Positions 2,776 through 8,394 of a stretch of DNA of 12,795 bases are shown here, piece after piece. The DNA lies in contig URUW01000030.1 of assembly GCA_900551205.1 (NCBI GenBank), positions 1 through 12,795 of the forward strand, read 5' to 3'. This stretch comes from an uncultured Collinsella sp. GTDB taxonomy: Bacteria; Actinomycetota; Coriobacteriia; Coriobacteriales; Coriobacteriaceae. Position 1 is the stretch's first letter, and every line of letters starts with the position of its first letter. The position numbers and the translations under genes were made by a program. Below the pieces are notes generated by a model, which saw nothing but the letters and a program-made list of their open reading frames with translations, did not search any database and was not told the origin of the DNA.

Positions 2776-3582
2776 TTGAAGAGCCATCTGAACATATTGA
2801 GCCGTCTGCAGGGTGCCGGCGCCCTACCGTTTGCGGACGAATTGCTACCGTTTGCCGAACGGGTGGCACGCGAGGCGCTCGAGGCATTGTCGCCAACACG
2901 ATGTGCCGGCTGCGAGCGCGCCGATGCGCTTATTTGCCAAGACTGTCTGGCCGCGCTCACGCTCATCGACCCATGTCATAGCTGTACCCGATGCGGCGCC
3001 CCGTTTGGGGATTTGCTGTGCACTGAGTGTTCGGTCGAGGGCACGTCCTCGGCAATGGCGGAGGCGCTCGACCGCTGCCTGGCGTGCGCCGTCTATGCGC
3101 ATCCGCTGCCGCGCATCATTAAAGCGTACAAGGACGCGGGCGAGCGACGCCTGGCGCCGTATCTGGCGGAGCTGCTCTACGACACCGCCCTGCATGCCCA
3201 GGTCGTAGCGCCCGATCGCTTAGGAGGTGTGCTGTCCGGTGCGGATGCGGTGGTGTTTGTGCCTGCGACGGCGGCAGCGTTTCGGCGGCGCGGTTTTGAT
3301 CATATGGAGGCCATTGCGCGCCCATTTTGCGAGCTGTCGGGTGTTCCTCTGCTCGATGCCCTCGTCAAGTACGGGCATGGCGACCAGCGCGAACTCGGTC
3401 GTGAGGAGCGTCGCGAGCGTGCCCAAGGCATGTACGAGACGGTTGAGGACGTGCACGGCCGCCGCCTACTGCTTATCGATGACGTTATCACCACGGGCGC
3501 GACCATGGCAGCAGCCTCGGCGGAGCTCAAGCGTGCCGGCGCTGCGGCAGTCGATGGCCTTGCTATCGCACGTGTTTGGTAG
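2776..3582 (+). CDS. comF: ComF family protein (phosphoribosyltransferase-like, competence)
   Basis: This is a 268-residue ComF/ComFC protein. The family is required for uptake or handling of single-stranded DNA in natural transformation and is also found in non-competent bacteria; it acts in the cytoplasm. The N-terminus carries cysteine pairs that would bind zinc (C43/C46, C54/C57, C67/C70/C73, C82/C85, then C101/C104). The C-terminal phosphoribosyltransferase fold shows RRGFDHME (171-178) and the PRPP-binding loop LLLIDDVITTGATM (231-244). The length is typical to slightly long. The TTG start is chosen because AGGGAGGG lies 7 bases upstream and no ATG or GTG fits before the zinc finger; TTG plus a sequestered ribosome binding site implies weak or controlled expression. 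In Firmicutes comF often sits beside hpf; here hpf lies 3.2 kb downstream. Confidence 0.9.
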   Translation: MKSHLNILSRLQGAGALPFADELLPFAERVAREALEALSPTRCAGCERADALICQDCLAALTLIDPCHSCTRCGAPFGDLLCTECSVEGTSSAMAEALDRCLACAVYAHPLPRIIKAYKDAGERRLAPYLAELLYDTALHAQVVAPDRLGGVLSGADAVVFVPATAAAFRRRGFDHMEAIARPFCELSGVPLLDALVKYGHGDQRELGREERRERAQGMYETVEDVHGRRLLLIDDVITTGATMAAASAELKRAGAAAVDGLAIARVW

Positions 3583-3592
3583 GGGTGGTTTT

Positions 3593-4702
3593 GTGGCAGT
3601 GAAGATTGAGCGGCGCAACGAGCCGACAGGCGAACAGCTGGCGGCTTCCGTAATCCTAACAGGCGCTTCAGCGCTGCGCATGATGCGCGCCGAGCGCCGG
3701 CAGATGGGCTATATCAGCTGGAAGGACCTTGAGCCCGATGAAGAGCGCCGCGTGCTGCGCACGTCGTCGCCCTCGACCGAGGATATCTATCTTCCCGACT
3801 TGGTGCGAATTGGAGCCAAAAGTGGCGAGGTGCAAGAAGATCTGTGCTTGCTGGTGGGATCTGCGGCGCAGCGCCGCCGCATGCCTGGCGTAGGCTGGTC
3901 CGTGTGTTCCAGGTTGCCCGCAGGCTCGATTCTAGAGGTGGAACCGGGGGTGTACAGCCTATCTCCCGAGGCCCTTTGTGTTGCCGTTGCGCGCGAGGTC
4001 GGCTGCATCCAGGCGTTTGCCCTGGCCCAGGAGCTGTGCTCCAAGATTTCACTGAGCGATCGCGGGAAGTATCTGCCTCCCTACACCTCGCCTGTTACGA
4101 ATAAACTTGCAAAGGACAAGGACCAGCCAGCAGACGTGGGCTACTTTGAAGTCGAGCCGGTGCTGATGCCCGATCGTCTGGCAGATTATCTCGCGGTATA
4201 CAAGGGGAACACGGCCAAACAACTGCAGCGTCTGTGTCCCTATCTTTCGGAAAACCTGCGCTCACCCATGGAGTGCATCATGCTCGCTTTGTTTTCGCTT
4301 CCGTTTTCCTATGGCGGTTTTGCCTGCGGTCCCTTTAAGACCGACTACAAGATCGAGTTCGATGACCGCGCGCAGGCAATCTCGGGGATGCCTCATGCAG
4401 TTTGCGATGCGTATCAAGAGGCAGCCCGGTTTGACCTGGAATACAACGGTGAGCTGGGCCATTCGTCTCGCGGTGGGCGCATTCACGACGAAAAGCGTAA
4501 TACGGGCTTTATAGCTATGGGGATCGAGGTCGCAACGGTCAATAACGAGATGCTCTGCGACATGGAGGCGATGGAGGCACTCGCATGGCGCATATACCAA
4601 CGCATGGGCAAGCGGTACCAAAACCGCGTGGAGGCTCGTCGGAAGAAGCAAGACGCGCTGCTGAATACGCTCCGAGCATGTTTTGGGCTTAAGCCAGCAT
4701 AG
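3593..4702 (+). CDS. Uncharacterized protein with restriction-endonuclease-like (DUF559/VSR-like) C-terminal region
   Basis: This 369-residue protein resembles, from memory, a family of hypothetical proteins multiplied in Coriobacteriia: an N-terminal part reminiscent of AbiEi-type antitoxin domains and a C-terminal nuclease-like fold. Visible landmarks are the YSLSPEALCVAVAREVG block (121-137), SPMECIMLALFSLPFSYGGF (225-244), then RFDLEYNGELGHSSRGG (279-295) and KRNTGFIAMGIEVATV (301-316). The conserved Glu228, Asp281, Glu283 and Asp299 fit a PD-(D/E)XK-like active site, but this is inference. The GTG start at 3593 lies 4 bases after AGGGGTGG; GTG at 3599 (10-base spacer) is an alternative. 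It follows comF by 10 bases and may be cotranscribed with it. The open frame extends upstream into comF, but that part is a shadow. No signal peptide or membrane segment is evident. Function is unknown; foreign-DNA defence or DNA processing are both possible. Confidence 0.75.
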   Translation: MAVKIERRNEPTGEQLAASVILTGASALRMMRAERRQMGYISWKDLEPDEERRVLRTSSPSTEDIYLPDLVRIGAKSGEVQEDLCLLVGSAAQRRRMPGVGWSVCSRLPAGSILEVEPGVYSLSPEALCVAVAREVGCIQAFALAQELCSKISLSDRGKYLPPYTSPVTNKLAKDKDQPADVGYFEVEPVLMPDRLADYLAVYKGNTAKQLQRLCPYLSENLRSPMECIMLALFSLPFSYGGFACGPFKTDYKIEFDDRAQAISGMPHAVCDAYQEAARFDLEYNGELGHSSRGGRIHDEKRNTGFIAMGIEVATVNNEMLCDMEAMEALAWRIYQRMGKRYQNRVEARRKKQDALLNTLRACFGLKPA

Positions 4703-4737
4703 ATGTTGGTTTTGAGAGGGGGTCTGTTTATAGGTGC

Positions 4738-4954
4738 TGTGCAAAAAGTGGCAAAAATGAGTACTGATACAAAATTAGTAACAGCAAAATCTGATATTTG
4801 CGGATCGAGAAACGGTAAAAATCGCGAAGATAATAAACAAATGTGGGAAATCAAGGCGCTAAGCAGGGCTAAATGAGCTCGAAACCGGCTCACGAGGTGG
4901 AAAATCGCTGCTACTAAATTGGTAACAGTACTCATATTTGCCGTTTTTTGCACA
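4738..4954. repeat. 217-bp MITE-like element with 49-bp imperfect terminal inverted repeats
   Basis: The left arm 4738-4786 (begins TGTGCAAAAAGTGGCAAAAA) and the reverse complement of the right arm 4906-4954 (begins TGTGCAAAAAACGGCAAATA) match at 41 of 49 positions without gaps. Weaker similarity continues about 15 bases outward (GTTTATAGGTGC against GTTTTAGGGGCCG). The 119-base interior is A+T-rich compared with the neighbouring genes and holds no convincing gene. The shape fits a non-autonomous miniature transposable element or a long mRNA hairpin. No clear target-site duplication is visible. The inverted repeat is certain; mobility is inference. Confidence 0.7.
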
Positions 4955-4973
4955 CGGCCCCTAAAACGGGCGT

Positions 4974-5001
4974 CTCGAGGCTCCCCATAGGGGGCGACGA
5001 G
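4974..5001 (+). other. Hairpin with tandem A-G/G-A internal loop
   Basis: CTCG-AG-GCTCCC, loop CATA, GGGGGC-GA-CGAG forms a 10-base-pair stem interrupted by an AG/GA pair that could form tandem sheared G-A pairs. No T-run follows on the + strand, so a standard terminator is unlikely. It lies between the inverted-repeat element and the promoter at 5074-5102. Nothing else is recognized in 5002-5073. Confidence 0.4.
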
Positions 5002-5073
5002 CTCAATCTGGCCACGCGCAGCCCGTCCTGACCTGCGAAATCTGTACTCGCGATGCGAATGACGCCCCTAACC

Positions 5074-5102
5074 TTAAACTTTAGCTTGAACTTAGCTATA
5101 AT
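5074..5102 (+). promoter_or_regulatory. Sigma-70-type promoter (TTAAAC, 17-base spacer, TATAAT)
   Basis: A perfect TATAAT -10 element (5097-5102) lies 17 bases after TTAAAC (5074-5079), a weak -35 with the TT start kept. The surrounding stretch is A+T-rich in an otherwise G+C-rich region. Transcription would begin near 5109. It would drive the structured RNA region and, unless this terminates, the lipoprotein gene. Confidence 0.6.
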
Positions 5103-5108
5103 GCGCTA

Positions 5109-5430
5109 CGTTCCTACCAGGCTGTGGTTGCGGACGGACGAAATGCCCGTCCTAGTCCAAGACAGACGCGGTCAAAGGGATCCACGTAAGCGACCGCGTG
5201 CGCGCGGCGCGATCATGGCGCGTCCTAGATGTAAGCCGCACCGTCCGTTCTACTTTCTTTGGGGCAATACCGCCTCGCGGGCGAGCGGGCCAGTCGTGAG
5301 GGTGGCTGCGGCCTCCCGAGCAAACACCCCGGTGCGCAAGTGTGGGGTCAAATACCAGGTCAGCTGGTGGGAACAACCCGATATTCCGCGCAACGCACGG
5401 ATCGTATACGACACAGAAGGCAGGGTAGTG
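5109..5430 (+). ncRNA. Candidate structured RNA / long leader, possibly raiA motif RNA
   Basis: About 320 bases without a credible gene follow the TATAAT promoter and can form many G+C-rich helices. Local hairpins are 5132-5140 with 5148-5158 (9 base pairs, TA bulge), 5166-5173 with 5192-5199 (8 perfect), 5270-5288 (CTCG/CGAG core) and ACCAG 5354-5358 with CTGGT 5364-5368. A 3' domain is closed by GTCGT 5293-5297 and ACGAC 5408-5412, with GTGCG 5332-5336 pairing CGCAC 5394-5398 and ACCCC 5326-5330 pairing GGGGT 5344-5348; these last two interleave, as a pseudoknot would. CGGACGG (5131-5137) could instead pair with CCGTCCG (5241-5247). The raiA RNA motif is known in Firmicutes and Actinobacteria near raiA/hpf and comFC; this region lies between those genes. 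I could not match its consensus from memory. A leader or riboswitch for the lipoprotein gene is the main alternative. Both ends are estimated. Confidence 0.5.
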
Positions 5431-5433
5431 GAC

Positions 5434-6459
5434 ATGGTGAGGGGCAGCTTGATGCACGCGGCTCGGTTAGGTGCTGGGACCGCAGCGGTCATTGCCGTTT
5501 TGGGCCTGAGCGGATGCGCGTTCAACCCGCTGTCTACGTTCACGACTCCCACGATCGACCAGATCGAGTACGAGACCGTCACGCCGGCGGTGTCGGACGA
5601 TGCCCTGGTCACTCCCGGAACCCTGACGGTCGCCCTCGATACTTCCGATGCGCCGCAGGCAATGCAGGGCGCCGACGGCGAGCTTACGGGGTATGCAGTC
5701 GATGCTGCCCGCGCCCTCGCAAGCCGCATGGGCCTTAAGGTCGCCTTTGTCGATGCGTCCTCGGCAGGTTCCGCGCTCGGCGACAAAAAGGCTGATATCT
5801 TTATCGGCGAGATCAACTCCACGGACGGGGACGTTAGCTCGCTCGGCACCTGCCTGTACGATGCCGCTTCCGTGTTCGGTAAAACCAGCGATGGTGGGTC
5901 GCTAAGCGTTTCCACCGATACCCTTAACACGTCTACTCTGGGTGTCCAGATGTCCTCGGCCTCGCAGGAGGCGCTTGCTAAGCAGAGCATCACCGCCAAC
6001 CAAAAGACCTACTCCAACATCAACGAGTGCTTTGAGGCGCTCGAGTCTGGCGAGGTCGACTATGTGATCTGCGACTCCACAGCCGGCGGCTATCTTGCAC
6101 GCCTGATGAGCGAGGTCTCCTATGTCGGTGCGCTCGAGGCGCCCTCGACGCTTGGTGTTGCGGGCCTCTCGTCCAATGACGAACTGTGCCGTGCCGTGAG
6201 TGATGCCCTCGACGACATCACGGTCGACGGCACGCTCGAGGCGGTTCACTGCGTCTGGTACGGCCAGATTCCCTACGACCTCACCACTAAGACGGTTTCG
6301 GGCGCTAACGTGCAGCCGGGCGACTCTGAGTCCAGTGAGACCACGTCCTCCGGCAGCGAGTCCTCCGATTCCAACAATGAGACCGCATCCTCCGAGGACA
6401 AATCGTCCAGCCAGGAAGGCACCATCACTGACGACGACATTAACAAACTTAATAGCTAG
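5434..6459 (+). CDS. Orphan extracellular solute-binding lipoprotein (SBP family 3-like)
   Basis: This 341-residue secreted lipoprotein has a positively charged N-terminus, hydrophobic stretch LGAGTAAVIAVLGLSGC and lipobox LSGC, so Cys28 would be lipidated. Residues 62-285 resemble family 3 periplasmic binding proteins (amino-acid or opine type): GTLTVALDTSDAPQ, ELTGYAVDAARALASRMGLKV, KKADIFIGEI and the inter-lobe region GEVDYVICDSTAGGYL. The last 50 residues are Ser/Asp/Glu/Thr-rich, probably a flexible tail. Two starts are possible: ATG 5434 (AGGG 8 bases upstream) and ATG 5452 (GAGG 9 bases upstream); both keep the signal sequence, and 5452 has the better Shine-Dalgarno. The frame extends further upstream to 5053, but that part is not protein-like. 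No permease or ATPase is adjacent, so it may be a sensor, scavenger or partner of a distant ABC transporter. A strong terminator follows. Confidence 0.85.
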   Translation: MVRGSLMHAARLGAGTAAVIAVLGLSGCAFNPLSTFTTPTIDQIEYETVTPAVSDDALVTPGTLTVALDTSDAPQAMQGADGELTGYAVDAARALASRMGLKVAFVDASSAGSALGDKKADIFIGEINSTDGDVSSLGTCLYDAASVFGKTSDGGSLSVSTDTLNTSTLGVQMSSASQEALAKQSITANQKTYSNINECFEALESGEVDYVICDSTAGGYLARLMSEVSYVGALEAPSTLGVAGLSSNDELCRAVSDALDDITVDGTLEAVHCVWYGQIPYDLTTKTVSGANVQPGDSESSETTSSGSESSDSNNETASSEDKSSSQEGTITDDDINKLNS

Positions 6460-6473
6460 TTATTGCTAGGGGT

Positions 6474-6502
6474 GGTGTCTCCTATACGTTGGAAAGGACA
6501 CC
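6474..6502 (+). other. Hairpin after the lipoprotein gene
   Basis: GGTGTC (6474-6479) pairs with GACACC (6497-6502), and the adjacent TCC (6480-6482) can pair with GGA (6491-6493). No T-run follows. It probably forms part of the mRNA 3' end just before the terminator at 6526-6560. Confidence 0.4.
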
Positions 6503-6525
6503 TCTTCACGGTTTCAACACGCACT

Positions 6526-6560
6526 GCCGGGTTTCCCCAATAGGGGAGCCCGGCTTTTTT
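6526..6560 (+). terminator. Rho-independent terminator of the lipoprotein gene
   Basis: GCCGGG (6526-6531) pairs with CCCGGC (6549-6554). Inside, CCCC and GGGG pair around an AATA loop. TTTTTT follows at 6555-6560. This isolates the lipoprotein transcript from hpf. Confidence 0.92.
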
Positions 6561-6776
6561 ATCCCTATAAAACCAGCAGGTCAAAGCCAATTTTCGGGAC
6601 CAAATAAAAAGTCGCCGACGCCCTCCCATAGCGCACTTTGCCACAGAAAAGTGCGAGACTTCGGTATGCGGTATTAAGCAATCGTTATTCGGGTCTTTAG
6701 GAATCCGCGTGATTAAATGCACGGCAATGGGTACATAGCCAGTACAGTAAGTCCCCGAGGCAGATTGGAGCCACGT
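6561..6776 (+). promoter_or_regulatory. hpf leader region with perfect 8-bp hairpin
   Basis: These 216 bases between the terminator and hpf hold no credible gene. They must contain the hpf promoter, but I see no clear -35/-10 pair. A perfect hairpin is present: CGCACTTT (6632-6639) with AAAGTGCG (6648-6655), loop GCCACAGA. The hpf ribosome binding site GGAG is at 6767-6770. Growth-phase control through this leader is plausible but unproven. Confidence 0.45.
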
Positions 6777-7361
6777 ATGGATATCAAGGTTTCTGGACGC
6801 AAGACGACGGTAACCGATGCTCTGCGTGCGCATGTGGATGAGAAGATCGGCGAGGCGCTCAAGGTTTTCGATATCGAGCCCATGACAGTCGACGTCGTGC
6901 TTCGTTATGAGAAGAACCCCTCGAACCCCAACCCGGCAATCGTCGAGGTCACGGTTCGTGCCCGCGGCTCTGTGATTCGCGTTGCCGAGCACGGCGCAGA
7001 TATGTATGCCGCCATCGACCTCTCCGCCGATAAGGTTACCCGCCAGCTGCGCAAGTTCAAGACTAAGGTCGTGGACAACCGCCAGGGTGGTGCCAGCGCC
7101 GCGGATGTCGCACCGGTCGAGCGCGTCGAGGATCTGGCCGACCTGCTGCTGCCCGAGGAGGAAGACGACCTGCTCGTCCGCGAGAAGGTTATCGACGTCA
7201 CTCCGATGACTGAGGAGCAGGCGCTGGTGCAGACCGATCTGCTCGGTCACGACTTCTACGTGTTCGAGAACGCGACGACCGGCCTTATCAATGTGGTGTA
7301 TCACCGTAAGAATGGTGGATATGGCATCATCAAGCCCCGCATCGAAACACTTGACGAGTAA
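6777..7361 (+). CDS. hpf: Long-form ribosome hibernation promoting factor (HPF/RaiA family)
   Basis: This 194-residue protein binds the 30S decoding site and, in its long form, makes 70S ribosomes dimerize into inactive 100S particles in stationary phase or starvation. The N-terminal S30AE/YfiA domain spans residues 1-95 (begins MDIKVSGRKTTVTDALRAHV; core VEVTVRARGSVIRVAEHGADMYAAID). A charged linker covers about 97-134. The C-terminal dimerization domain (135-190) has REKVIDVTPMTEEQALVQ, LLGHDFYVFEN and TGLINVVYHRKNGGYGIIKP, all standard for long HPF. ATG 6777 is chosen because GGAG lies 6 bases upstream; the frame runs further up to 6717, but that stretch is not part of the conserved domain. 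It is monocistronic, between two terminators. secA, a frequent downstream neighbour in Firmicutes, is not here. Confidence 0.95.
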   Translation: MDIKVSGRKTTVTDALRAHVDEKIGEALKVFDIEPMTVDVVLRYEKNPSNPNPAIVEVTVRARGSVIRVAEHGADMYAAIDLSADKVTRQLRKFKTKVVDNRQGGASAADVAPVERVEDLADLLLPEEEDDLLVREKVIDVTPMTEEQALVQTDLLGHDFYVFENATTGLINVVYHRKNGGYGIIKPRIETLDE

Positions 7362-7365
7362 AATA

Positions 7366-7387
7366 CGTTAACTTGCATGAGTTAACG
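7366..7387. repeat. 8-bp-arm inverted repeat after hpf
   Basis: CGTTAACT (7366-7373) and AGTTAACG (7380-7387) are perfect inverted arms around TGCATG. Each arm contains GTTAAC. It lies 5 bases after the hpf stop and 3 bases before the terminator stem, so it could be an RNA 3'-end hairpin or a protein-binding operator. Confidence 0.5.
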
Positions 7388-7390
7388 GCT

Positions 7391-7422
7391 GGCGGCCATC
7401 CCATGCGGGTGGCCGCCTTTTT
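7391..7422 (+). terminator. Rho-independent terminator of hpf
   Basis: GGCGGCCA (7391-7398) pairs perfectly with TGGCCGCC (7410-7417). CCC and GGG extend the stem inside past one bulged T, with loop ATGC. TTTTT follows at 7418-7422. The degV ribosome binding site TAAGGAG begins only four bases later, so degV needs read-through or a promoter inside this region. Confidence 0.92.
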
Positions 7423-7440
7423 ACGTAAGGAGTCGCTTTG

Positions 7441-8394
7441 ATGGACAAGGCCGCATCCGCCGGTCATTCGGACCGTTGCCGCATCGTCGTCGATACCTGC
7501 TGCGACTTTAGCCCCGAGGTCGCCGCGAACCTCGATGTCGATATCCTGGGTTTCCCCTTCATTATCGATGGCGAAGAGCGCACGGACGACATCTGGTCGA
7601 GCATCACACCCAAGGAGTTCTACGACCGTATGCGCGCCGGTGCCCGCGTGTCCACCTCGGCTGTGTCGCTCGGTCGCTATATCGAGTTCTTTACCGAGTG
7701 CGCCAAAGAGGGTACGCCTACGGTCTACCTGTGCTTTACCTCGGCGCTGTCGTCGAGCTACAACTCCGCGTGCCAGGCGGCGGACGCCGTGCGCGCCGAG
7801 TATCCCAACTTTGAGCTGTACGTGGTCGACAACGCTCTGCCCTGTGCGACCGGCGAGCTCTTGGCGCTTGAGGCCGTGCGCCAGCGTTCGGCGGGACTGA
7901 CCGCCAAGCAGCTGGTCGACTGGGCAAACGAGGCCAAGACCTATGTCCACGGTTACTTTACGCTCGAGAGCTTTGACGCGCTGGCTGCCGGCGGCCGCAT
8001 TCCGCCCGCGGCGGCACAGCTCACGGCAAAGCTCGACGTCAAACCCGAGCTGTCCTACGACCTGGCCGGCTCGCTGTCGCTGATCGGCGTCAACCGCGGT
8101 CGCAAGAAGGCGCTCAAGTCCATCCTCAAGTCGTTCCGCGAGAACTATGTGCCCGATCGCACCATGCCCATCGCCATTATGACGGCCGATGCCGAGAAGG
8201 ACGGCGACTGGCTCGAAGCCGCCATCCGCAAGGAGGAGGGTTGCGCCGACGTCACGATCATTCGCAGCTCCGTCGGTCCTACCATCGGCTCGCACGTGGG
8301 CCCCGGCATGGTGGCCTGCGCGTTTTGGGGTAAGAACCGCGCCGACAAGGCGTCGCTTTCCGACCGCATCGCCCGCCGCGTGCGCGGCCAGTAG
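7441..8394 (+). CDS. DegV family fatty-acid-binding protein
   Basis: This 317-residue protein belongs to the DegV/FakB family, which binds a fatty acid and, in Gram-positive bacteria, presents it to the kinase FakA to make acyl phosphate for phospholipid synthesis. Family landmarks are VDTCCDF (17-23), the STSAVS motif (71-76, corresponding to TSQPS), the SALSSSYNSA loop (101-110), FTLESFDALAAGGRI (173-187) and the C-terminal GPTIGSHVGPGMVA (279-292). Length is slightly above the usual 280-290. ATG 7441 has TAAGGAG 8 bases upstream; the adjacent TTG at 7438 is less likely. No fakA is nearby and the gene looks monocistronic. The fatty acid preferred cannot be read from the sequence. Confidence 0.92.
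   Translation: MDKAASAGHSDRCRIVVDTCCDFSPEVAANLDVDILGFPFIIDGEERTDDIWSSITPKEFYDRMRAGARVSTSAVSLGRYIEFFTECAKEGTPTVYLCFTSALSSSYNSACQAADAVRAEYPNFELYVVDNALPCATGELLALEAVRQRSAGLTAKQLVDWANEAKTYVHGYFTLESFDALAAGGRIPPAAAQLTAKLDVKPELSYDLAGSLSLIGVNRGRKKALKSILKSFRENYVPDRTMPIAIMTADAEKDGDWLEAAIRKEEGCADVTIIRSSVGPTIGSHVGPGMVACAFWGKNRADKASLSDRIARRVRGQ

Follow-up and report, generated by a model that had tools for sequence, protein, structure and literature searches.

A raiA (ModT) RNA and its unusually strict linkage to a single lipoprotein gene in the class Coriobacteriia

The chromosomal neighbourhood of comF and hpf in an uncultured Collinsella sp. contains a promoter-driven, highly structured stretch of DNA directly upstream of a gene for a solute-binding lipoprotein, and this arrangement raises the question of whether the stretch encodes a trans-acting RNA or forms a long, ligand-responsive leader of the lipoprotein gene. 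Here, the window denotes the whole stretch of DNA that was analysed (12,795 nucleotides), in which genes for the DNA polymerase III subunit delta' and a PSP1-domain protein (ricT by RefSeq) are followed by comF, an open reading frame termed ORF4, the structured element, the lipoprotein gene (SBP1), hpf and degV. An earlier note, made from the letters of the sequence, proposed a raiA RNA as the leading candidate and a leader responding to a ligand as the alternative. We summarize below the evidence on the identity of the element, its linkage to SBP1 and the mechanisms that may underlie this linkage.

The raiA RNA is a family with a published structure of eight helices and two pseudoknots (PMC11751092), which is the subject of a second structural report (PMC12286853), and knock-outs as well as action in trans have been described for it (PMC11706538). 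In the latter source, Soares and colleagues are quoted for the genomic neighbours of the RNA, comFC in 74% and raiA in 66% of cases. According to PMC11477304, citing Weinberg and colleagues 2017, the RNA often lies upstream of raiA or of genes for periplasmic-binding proteins, and thus an association between the RNA and binding-protein genes is already in print. In the literature searched (Soares and colleagues and Weinberg 2017 lay outside this search), no description was found of the linkage across the class, of the gap lengths, of the transporter operon or of the missing arginine discussed below, and no claim of priority is made.

A cmscan search of the window against Rfam yielded one match above threshold, the raiA RNA (RF03072) at positions 5112-5372 of the forward strand, with 146.5 bits (gathering threshold 101.3 bits), an E value of 4.7e-37 and the model covered as a whole (positions 1-209). 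Together with the covariation described below, this match establishes that the element is a raiA (ModT) RNA and hence a member of an already known family, as the earlier note had surmised when it recommended an Rfam search with raiA first. Two further families that scored within 4950-5600, SorX (17.5 bits) and COG3943 RNA (14.6 bits), fell far below threshold and were discarded. Of the approximately 320 bases initially perceived as structured, 5112-5372 correspond to the RNA, while the remainder up to 5433 constitutes the leader of the next gene. The usual neighbourhood of the family is present, with comF (2776-3582, forward strand; Pfam and NCBIfam searches) upstream and hpf, the raiA gene for a ribosome hibernation factor (6717-7361, forward strand; Pfam, TIGR00741), downstream. 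The proposed position between these two genes is therefore correct only in the wider sense, since ORF4 intervenes between comF and the RNA, and SBP1 between the RNA and hpf.

ORF4 extends from about 3680 to 4702, between comF and the RNA promoter, its start being inferred from a RefSeq homologue, and it had no match in Pfam, NCBIfam or PADLOC. Matches to ORF4 occur in 17 of 40 loci of the own genus (a short one in L150) but not in L155, and outside the genus only a weak match of 22% was found, in L102. Further downstream, a MITE-like dispersed element with 59-nt inverted arms (80% complementary) occupies 4727-4965; with 4735-4960 as query, 20 of 42 genomes of the genus gave 12-29 matches each, for the most part short pieces of its ends, and the other 22 gave none. 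In RefSeq, the homologous stretch of C. aerofaciens has the same gene order, SBP1 starting 61 nt after the RNA, and its table, which lists no RNA genes, leaves the stretch of the RNA free of genes. A PLSDB "plasmid" record of 900 kb from C. aerofaciens (NZ_OY725717.1) that carries ricT, a comF-like gene, the raiA RNA and hpf probably is a piece of chromosome.

The secondary structure was assessed in a MAFFT alignment of 77 Coriobacteriia sequences, comprising the window, 60 loci of the class and 16 of 40 loci of the own genus. The proposed partners pair in 95.0% of the cells as compared to 85.4% in shuffles, two-sided changes occur at 29 of 43 tested pairs (shuffle mean, 19.1), and pairing falls to 32-46% of the cells once the partners are displaced by 1 to 3 columns. 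The closing helix P1 joins 5112-5128 to 5354-5372 with covariation; its inner seven pairs are formed in 100% of the cells, and its outer nine, counted apart because of a MAFFT offset of one column between own-family and other sequences, in 667 of 693 cells, several of them with two-sided changes. P1 can be lengthened by its flanking bases, by three or more pairs in 41 of the 60 class loci; among the 41 own-genus loci, 24 gain two pairs and 14 gain none, which does not exceed the shuffles. Helix P2 (5132-5152), which the Rfam model treats as an insert, is paired in 94-98% of the cells and shows two-sided changes in five of its six pairs. The inner stem-loop P3 (5161-5173) is paired throughout (100% of the cells), and its loop contributes the 5' strand (5165-5170) of pseudoknot pk1, whose 3' strand lies in the pk-loop (5219-5224). 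Pseudoknot pk1 pairs in all 77 sequences (100% of the cells, two-sided changes at three of six pairs). By the alignment as a whole, the multiple helices and the interleaved pair that had been noticed in the letters are real.

The variable helix P5 (5190-5210) has all eight pairs standard in the window and is paired in 73-76% of the cells, in a part of the MAFFT alignment that is loose. The adjacent domain at 5238-5335 consists of P6 (5238-5241/5332-5335), P7 (5242-5246/5279-5283) and P8, the base of which (5287-5289/5327-5329) was tested for pairing; P6, P7 and the P8 base pair in 99.5-100% of the cells with two-sided changes. This P6-P7-P8 multi-stem corresponds to variant 2, which accounts for 68% of the known raiA RNA sequences. 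Regarding the smaller elements of the family, PMC11751092 describes pk2 as two pairs and the E-loop as present in only 20% of sequences. The minimum free energy of the fold is unremarkable (z = -1.33; 21 of 200 shuffles at least as stable), and folding energy alone would thus miss the structure.

The absence of a plausible protein, likewise proposed earlier, is upheld by the comparison of relatives. The reading frame of SBP1 is open back through the RNA in the window (ORF 5053-6459), but only in 27 of 98 loci, which makes coding unlikely and disposes of the idea that the RNA region is translated as part of SBP1. As a side observation, many of the 120 listed public database proteins of the SBP1 type are 382-501 amino acids long; their starts probably are set wrongly inside the raiA RNA, i.e., in the region corresponding to 5053-5433 of the window.

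The perfect TATAAT noticed initially is located at 5097-5102 on the forward strand, 17 nt after a weak -35-like TTAAAC (5074-5079; three of six consensus letters). A strict sigma-70 scan of 4950-7450 called no promoter, and support for the promoter comes from the conserved position of the -10 box. A -10-like box just upstream of the RNA is found in 57 of 60 class loci (13 of 1200 random upstream windows), in 38 of the 38 own-genus loci with enough upstream DNA (3 of 760) and in 27 of 37 loci outside the class (24 of 740). From the TATAAT at 5097-5102, transcription is expected to start at approximately 5109-5111.

The RNA is separated from SBP1 by a gap of 61 nt (5373-5433), which contains a Shine-Dalgarno-like AGGG at 5422-5425. 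By the thresholds used, the gaps of all 98 loci of the class and the own genus are free of terminator-like as well as -10-like sites (0/98 each). Consistent with the earlier description of a lipoprotein gene directly downstream with no terminator in between, the first forward terminator-like site in 4950-7450 is located at 6526-6554, after SBP1 and before hpf; this hairpin with a T run (6526-6560) likely marks the end of an RNA-SBP1 unit. Sites of this kind are rare after SBP1, too: they were detected in 14 of 40 own-genus and 3 of 57 class loci (2 and 1 in shuffled regions, respectively), and a looser test found them in 22 of the 98 loci together. The absence of terminators from the gap is therefore weak evidence if taken alone, and the short median gap of 34 nt in the class provides the stronger argument for one transcript.

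SBP1 itself (5434-6459, forward strand) encodes an orphan solute-binding lipoprotein of the SBP_bac_3 family (Pfam PF00497, E 6.6e-15). Its conservation next to the RNA was surveyed in the Coriobacteriia, the own genus and the rest of the phylum, with the Bacillota lying outside the survey, and SBP1 was called by profile search of reading frames. The class set comprises 60 loci from 60 distinct genera, picked by us among the matches listed (119 genera have a match); one of these loci extends only 1481 nt downstream and two less than 1000 nt upstream. In 57 of the 60 class loci and all 41 loci of the own genus (40 of 42 RNA matches plus the window), SBP1 lies downstream on the same strand at a distance of no more than 400 nt from the RNA. 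Among 40 loci from outside the class, taken from the 73 RNA matches in the rest of the phylum, none has SBP1 beside the RNA, and an hpf match lies downstream in 32 of them. In the class, 38 of 57 gaps measure between 20 and 40 nt, and three gaps below 20 nt (-41, 8 and 8) are doubtful, the start codons being chosen by script; the gaps of the own genus are wider (median 61 nt, maximum 103 nt).

The other neighbours are less constant. Within the 60 class loci, comF is found upstream on the same strand in 50 and on the other strand in 6, and was not found in 4; hpf lies up to 2.5 kb downstream in 23, further away in 25 and on the other strand in 1, and the downstream DNA fetched for the remaining 11 contained no hpf match. 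SBP1 is kept where comF and hpf shift, and hence SBP1, rather than hpf or comF, is the persistent neighbour of the RNA. In 30 of 30 genomes, which include the own genome of each query, the best match to two distant SBP1 queries is the gene adjacent to the raiA RNA, in line with SBP1 being a single orthologous gene. The named loci among the relatives of the SBP1 gene all belong to Collinsella (20 of 20), many of them to C. aerofaciens.

The RNA is nearly ubiquitous in the class (284 of 296 genomes) and the genus (42 of 43, G300 being the one without it), and it occurs in 94 of 246 genomes sampled from the phylum, 21 of these 94 belonging to the class. A search of viruses with one exact pattern gave 0 matches, and the locus was not found in phages. 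The three class representatives that lack SBP1 within 400 nt are L094, L099 and L125, and in L125 a different binding-protein gene begins 639 nt after the RNA. Moreover, two genomes, G184 and G115, keep the RNA with hpf next to it and SBP1 absent beside it, and no SBP1-like match was present on the contig of the RNA; these two are the RNA-bearing genomes in which the absence was inspected in place. In five more RNA-bearing genomes of the genus of G184, none of the listed SBP1-like matches adjoins the RNA. Conversely, 12 class genomes have no RNA match. Three of them (G100, G148 and G102) carry SBP1 at the start of a contig, where the RNA would be cut off, and the other nine have weak SBP1 matches (best E 5e-15 to 8e-11) or none, an E-value-based absence that is uncertain since a true orthologue in G009 scored just 8e-11 with one query. 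In two genomes of high completeness (G264, 92%; G294, 90%), the lack of an RNA match coincides with only weak SBP1 matches, and joint losses of the raiA RNA and SBP1 are possible.

The reading that we prefer, at a probability of roughly 80%, is that the raiA RNA has its own promoter, serves as the leader of the SBP1 mRNA and is released by processing to act in trans. It draws directly on the family membership, the position of the -10 box, the tight RNA-SBP1 linkage and a gap devoid of terminator-like and -10-like sites. Transcription would begin at the promoter with its -10 box some nine bases ahead of P1, and in Coriobacteriia the transcript most likely runs on into SBP1, as no stop signal is visible between the two, such that the RNA would form the 5' leader of the SBP1 mRNA. 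With no terminator seen in the gap, a discrete mature RNA would need processing there: cleavage in the short gap after P1 may free the compact RNA or leave it as a stable 5' fragment. The RNA would then act in trans, like its reported counterparts in Clostridioides difficile and Clostridium acetobutylicum, and the remaining transcript would make SBP1.

A doubtful but possible alternative is that SBP1 is a passenger on the raiA promoter without any functional tie to the RNA, which is compatible with the one-transcript part of the preferred reading. Among the loci examined, none outside this class has SBP1 next to the RNA, and G184 and G115 lack it, as might be expected of a mere passenger. Against this stands the persistence of the linkage in 57 of 60 genera, where it survives a strand switch of comF, a distant or missing hpf and the absence of transporter genes; a passenger would be expected to drift off more often.

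It is considerably less probable that the RNA acts mainly in cis, as a riboswitch-like, ligand-responsive leader of SBP1 and, where present, of amino-acid transporter genes. The earlier note had offered such a leader as the alternative, and this was half wrong: the RNA indeed occupies the leader position of SBP1 across the class, on the same strand and with a median gap of 34 nt, but the gap shows no terminator, and the RNA also occurs where the gene is lacking. A cis role would also suit the 27 of 60 loci with permease and ATPase motifs up to 6.2 kb downstream, and the 12 RNA-less class genomes, in which clear SBP1 matches are confined to the three contig starts. Furthermore, of all parts of the RNA, the 5' strand of P1 shows the greatest complementarity to the SBP1 ribosome-binding site (RBS) (mean longest duplex 5.0-5.2, versus at most 4.9 elsewhere). 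Yet P1 matches the RBS of its own locus no better than it matches that of another locus (p 0.73; tested in 53 of the 57 class loci, taken by gap length), so the two do not co-vary. Purine runs within the gene are at least as closed as the RBS: its median unpaired fraction is 0.36 with and 0.40 without the RNA, compared to 0.27 for the control (46 loci, again selected by gap length), a weak and mixed result, with the RBS partly paired (below 0.3 unpaired) in 18 of the 46.

In addition, none of the 98 gaps harbours a terminator-like site, all 40 loci outside the class manage without SBP1, and the five relatives of G184 keep the RNA with no listed SBP1-like match beside it. Trans complementation in C. 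difficile and C. acetobutylicum, as reported in PMC11706538, argues in the same direction. A pure SBP1 riboswitch is thus disfavoured, because no expression platform was found and because the RNA occurs without SBP1 in the two genomes inspected. Finally, the notion that the structured look arises by chance in GC-rich DNA, with which the modest folding energy would agree, is refuted by the Rfam match and the covariation and deserves practically no credence.

The SBP1 protein shares its PF00497 domain and a lipobox with the family 3 amino-acid-binding lipoproteins of the glutamine, arginine and cystine type; its best solved relative is AncQR (4zv1), and GlnBP and ArtJ are among the best 60. In family 3 binding proteins an arginine anchors the carboxylate of the ligand. 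Among 67 SBP1 proteins, in contrast, the corresponding column holds R in only 2, and some R or K lies within three columns in 12, in a region where the alignment is gappy, while the hinge aspartate is kept in 58. The SBP1 of the window has no R or K in the stretch around the anchoring position. One may speculate that SBP1 binds a ligand other than a free amino acid, or that it is a sensor.

Unlike the binding proteins of amino-acid ABC transporters, SBP1 of the window lacks a neighbouring permease or ATPase gene, as judged from a Pfam scan of genes in the window. A motif test identified a polar amino-acid permease motif and ATPase motifs in separate frames up to 6.2 kb downstream in the above-mentioned 27 of 60 class loci. 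These loci include some from other orders and two from the own-order family f6, and accordingly the full transporter operon probably is the ancestral state, from which the Collinsella lineage has retained SBP1 only. As an aside, the second binding protein of the operon in L135 (1050-1920 nt after the RNA end) looks circularly permuted, family 3 motifs of the C-terminal half preceding those of the N-terminal half, and the same appearance is seen in L115, L117, L118, L121 and L128.

Compared to the clostridial raiA RNA/ModT, the RNA of the window shares the full-length RF03072 match, P1, P3, pk1 and the P6-P8 domain, as well as comF upstream and hpf further downstream. It differs by carrying P2, an insert in the Rfam alignment, and by being followed directly by SBP1 rather than by hpf or by the PTS antiterminator gene of C. 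difficile. The C. difficile ModT is described as abundant, stable and trans-acting, with a terminator after the RNA (PMC11706538), which the RNA of the window lacks; for the raiA RNA of C. acetobutylicum, the same source reports that no terminator was predicted. Like a riboswitch, the RNA of the window is structured and precedes a conserved gene of the same strand as its leader; in contrast to riboswitches, no expression platform was detected, and G184 and G115 have retained the RNA although the gene is absent there.

Taken together, a known RNA has one and the same lipoprotein gene as an unusually constant neighbour in the class Coriobacteriia. For this widespread and abundant RNA of high structure, the linkage to SBP1 offers a handle on what the RNA does: it provides a defined candidate for a protein partner, it yields a clear prediction of how the 3' end of the RNA forms where no terminator is seen, and the genomes that keep the RNA without SBP1 represent a natural experiment. 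A more tentative idea, which we regard as unlikely but worth stating, is that the raiA RNA and SBP1 form one functional unit with two products, in which the divergent, extracellular SBP1 would sense, rather than import, a nutrient signal for the growth transition controlled by the RNA. If this were true, one could learn from the ligand of SBP1 which signal lies behind the raiA RNA.
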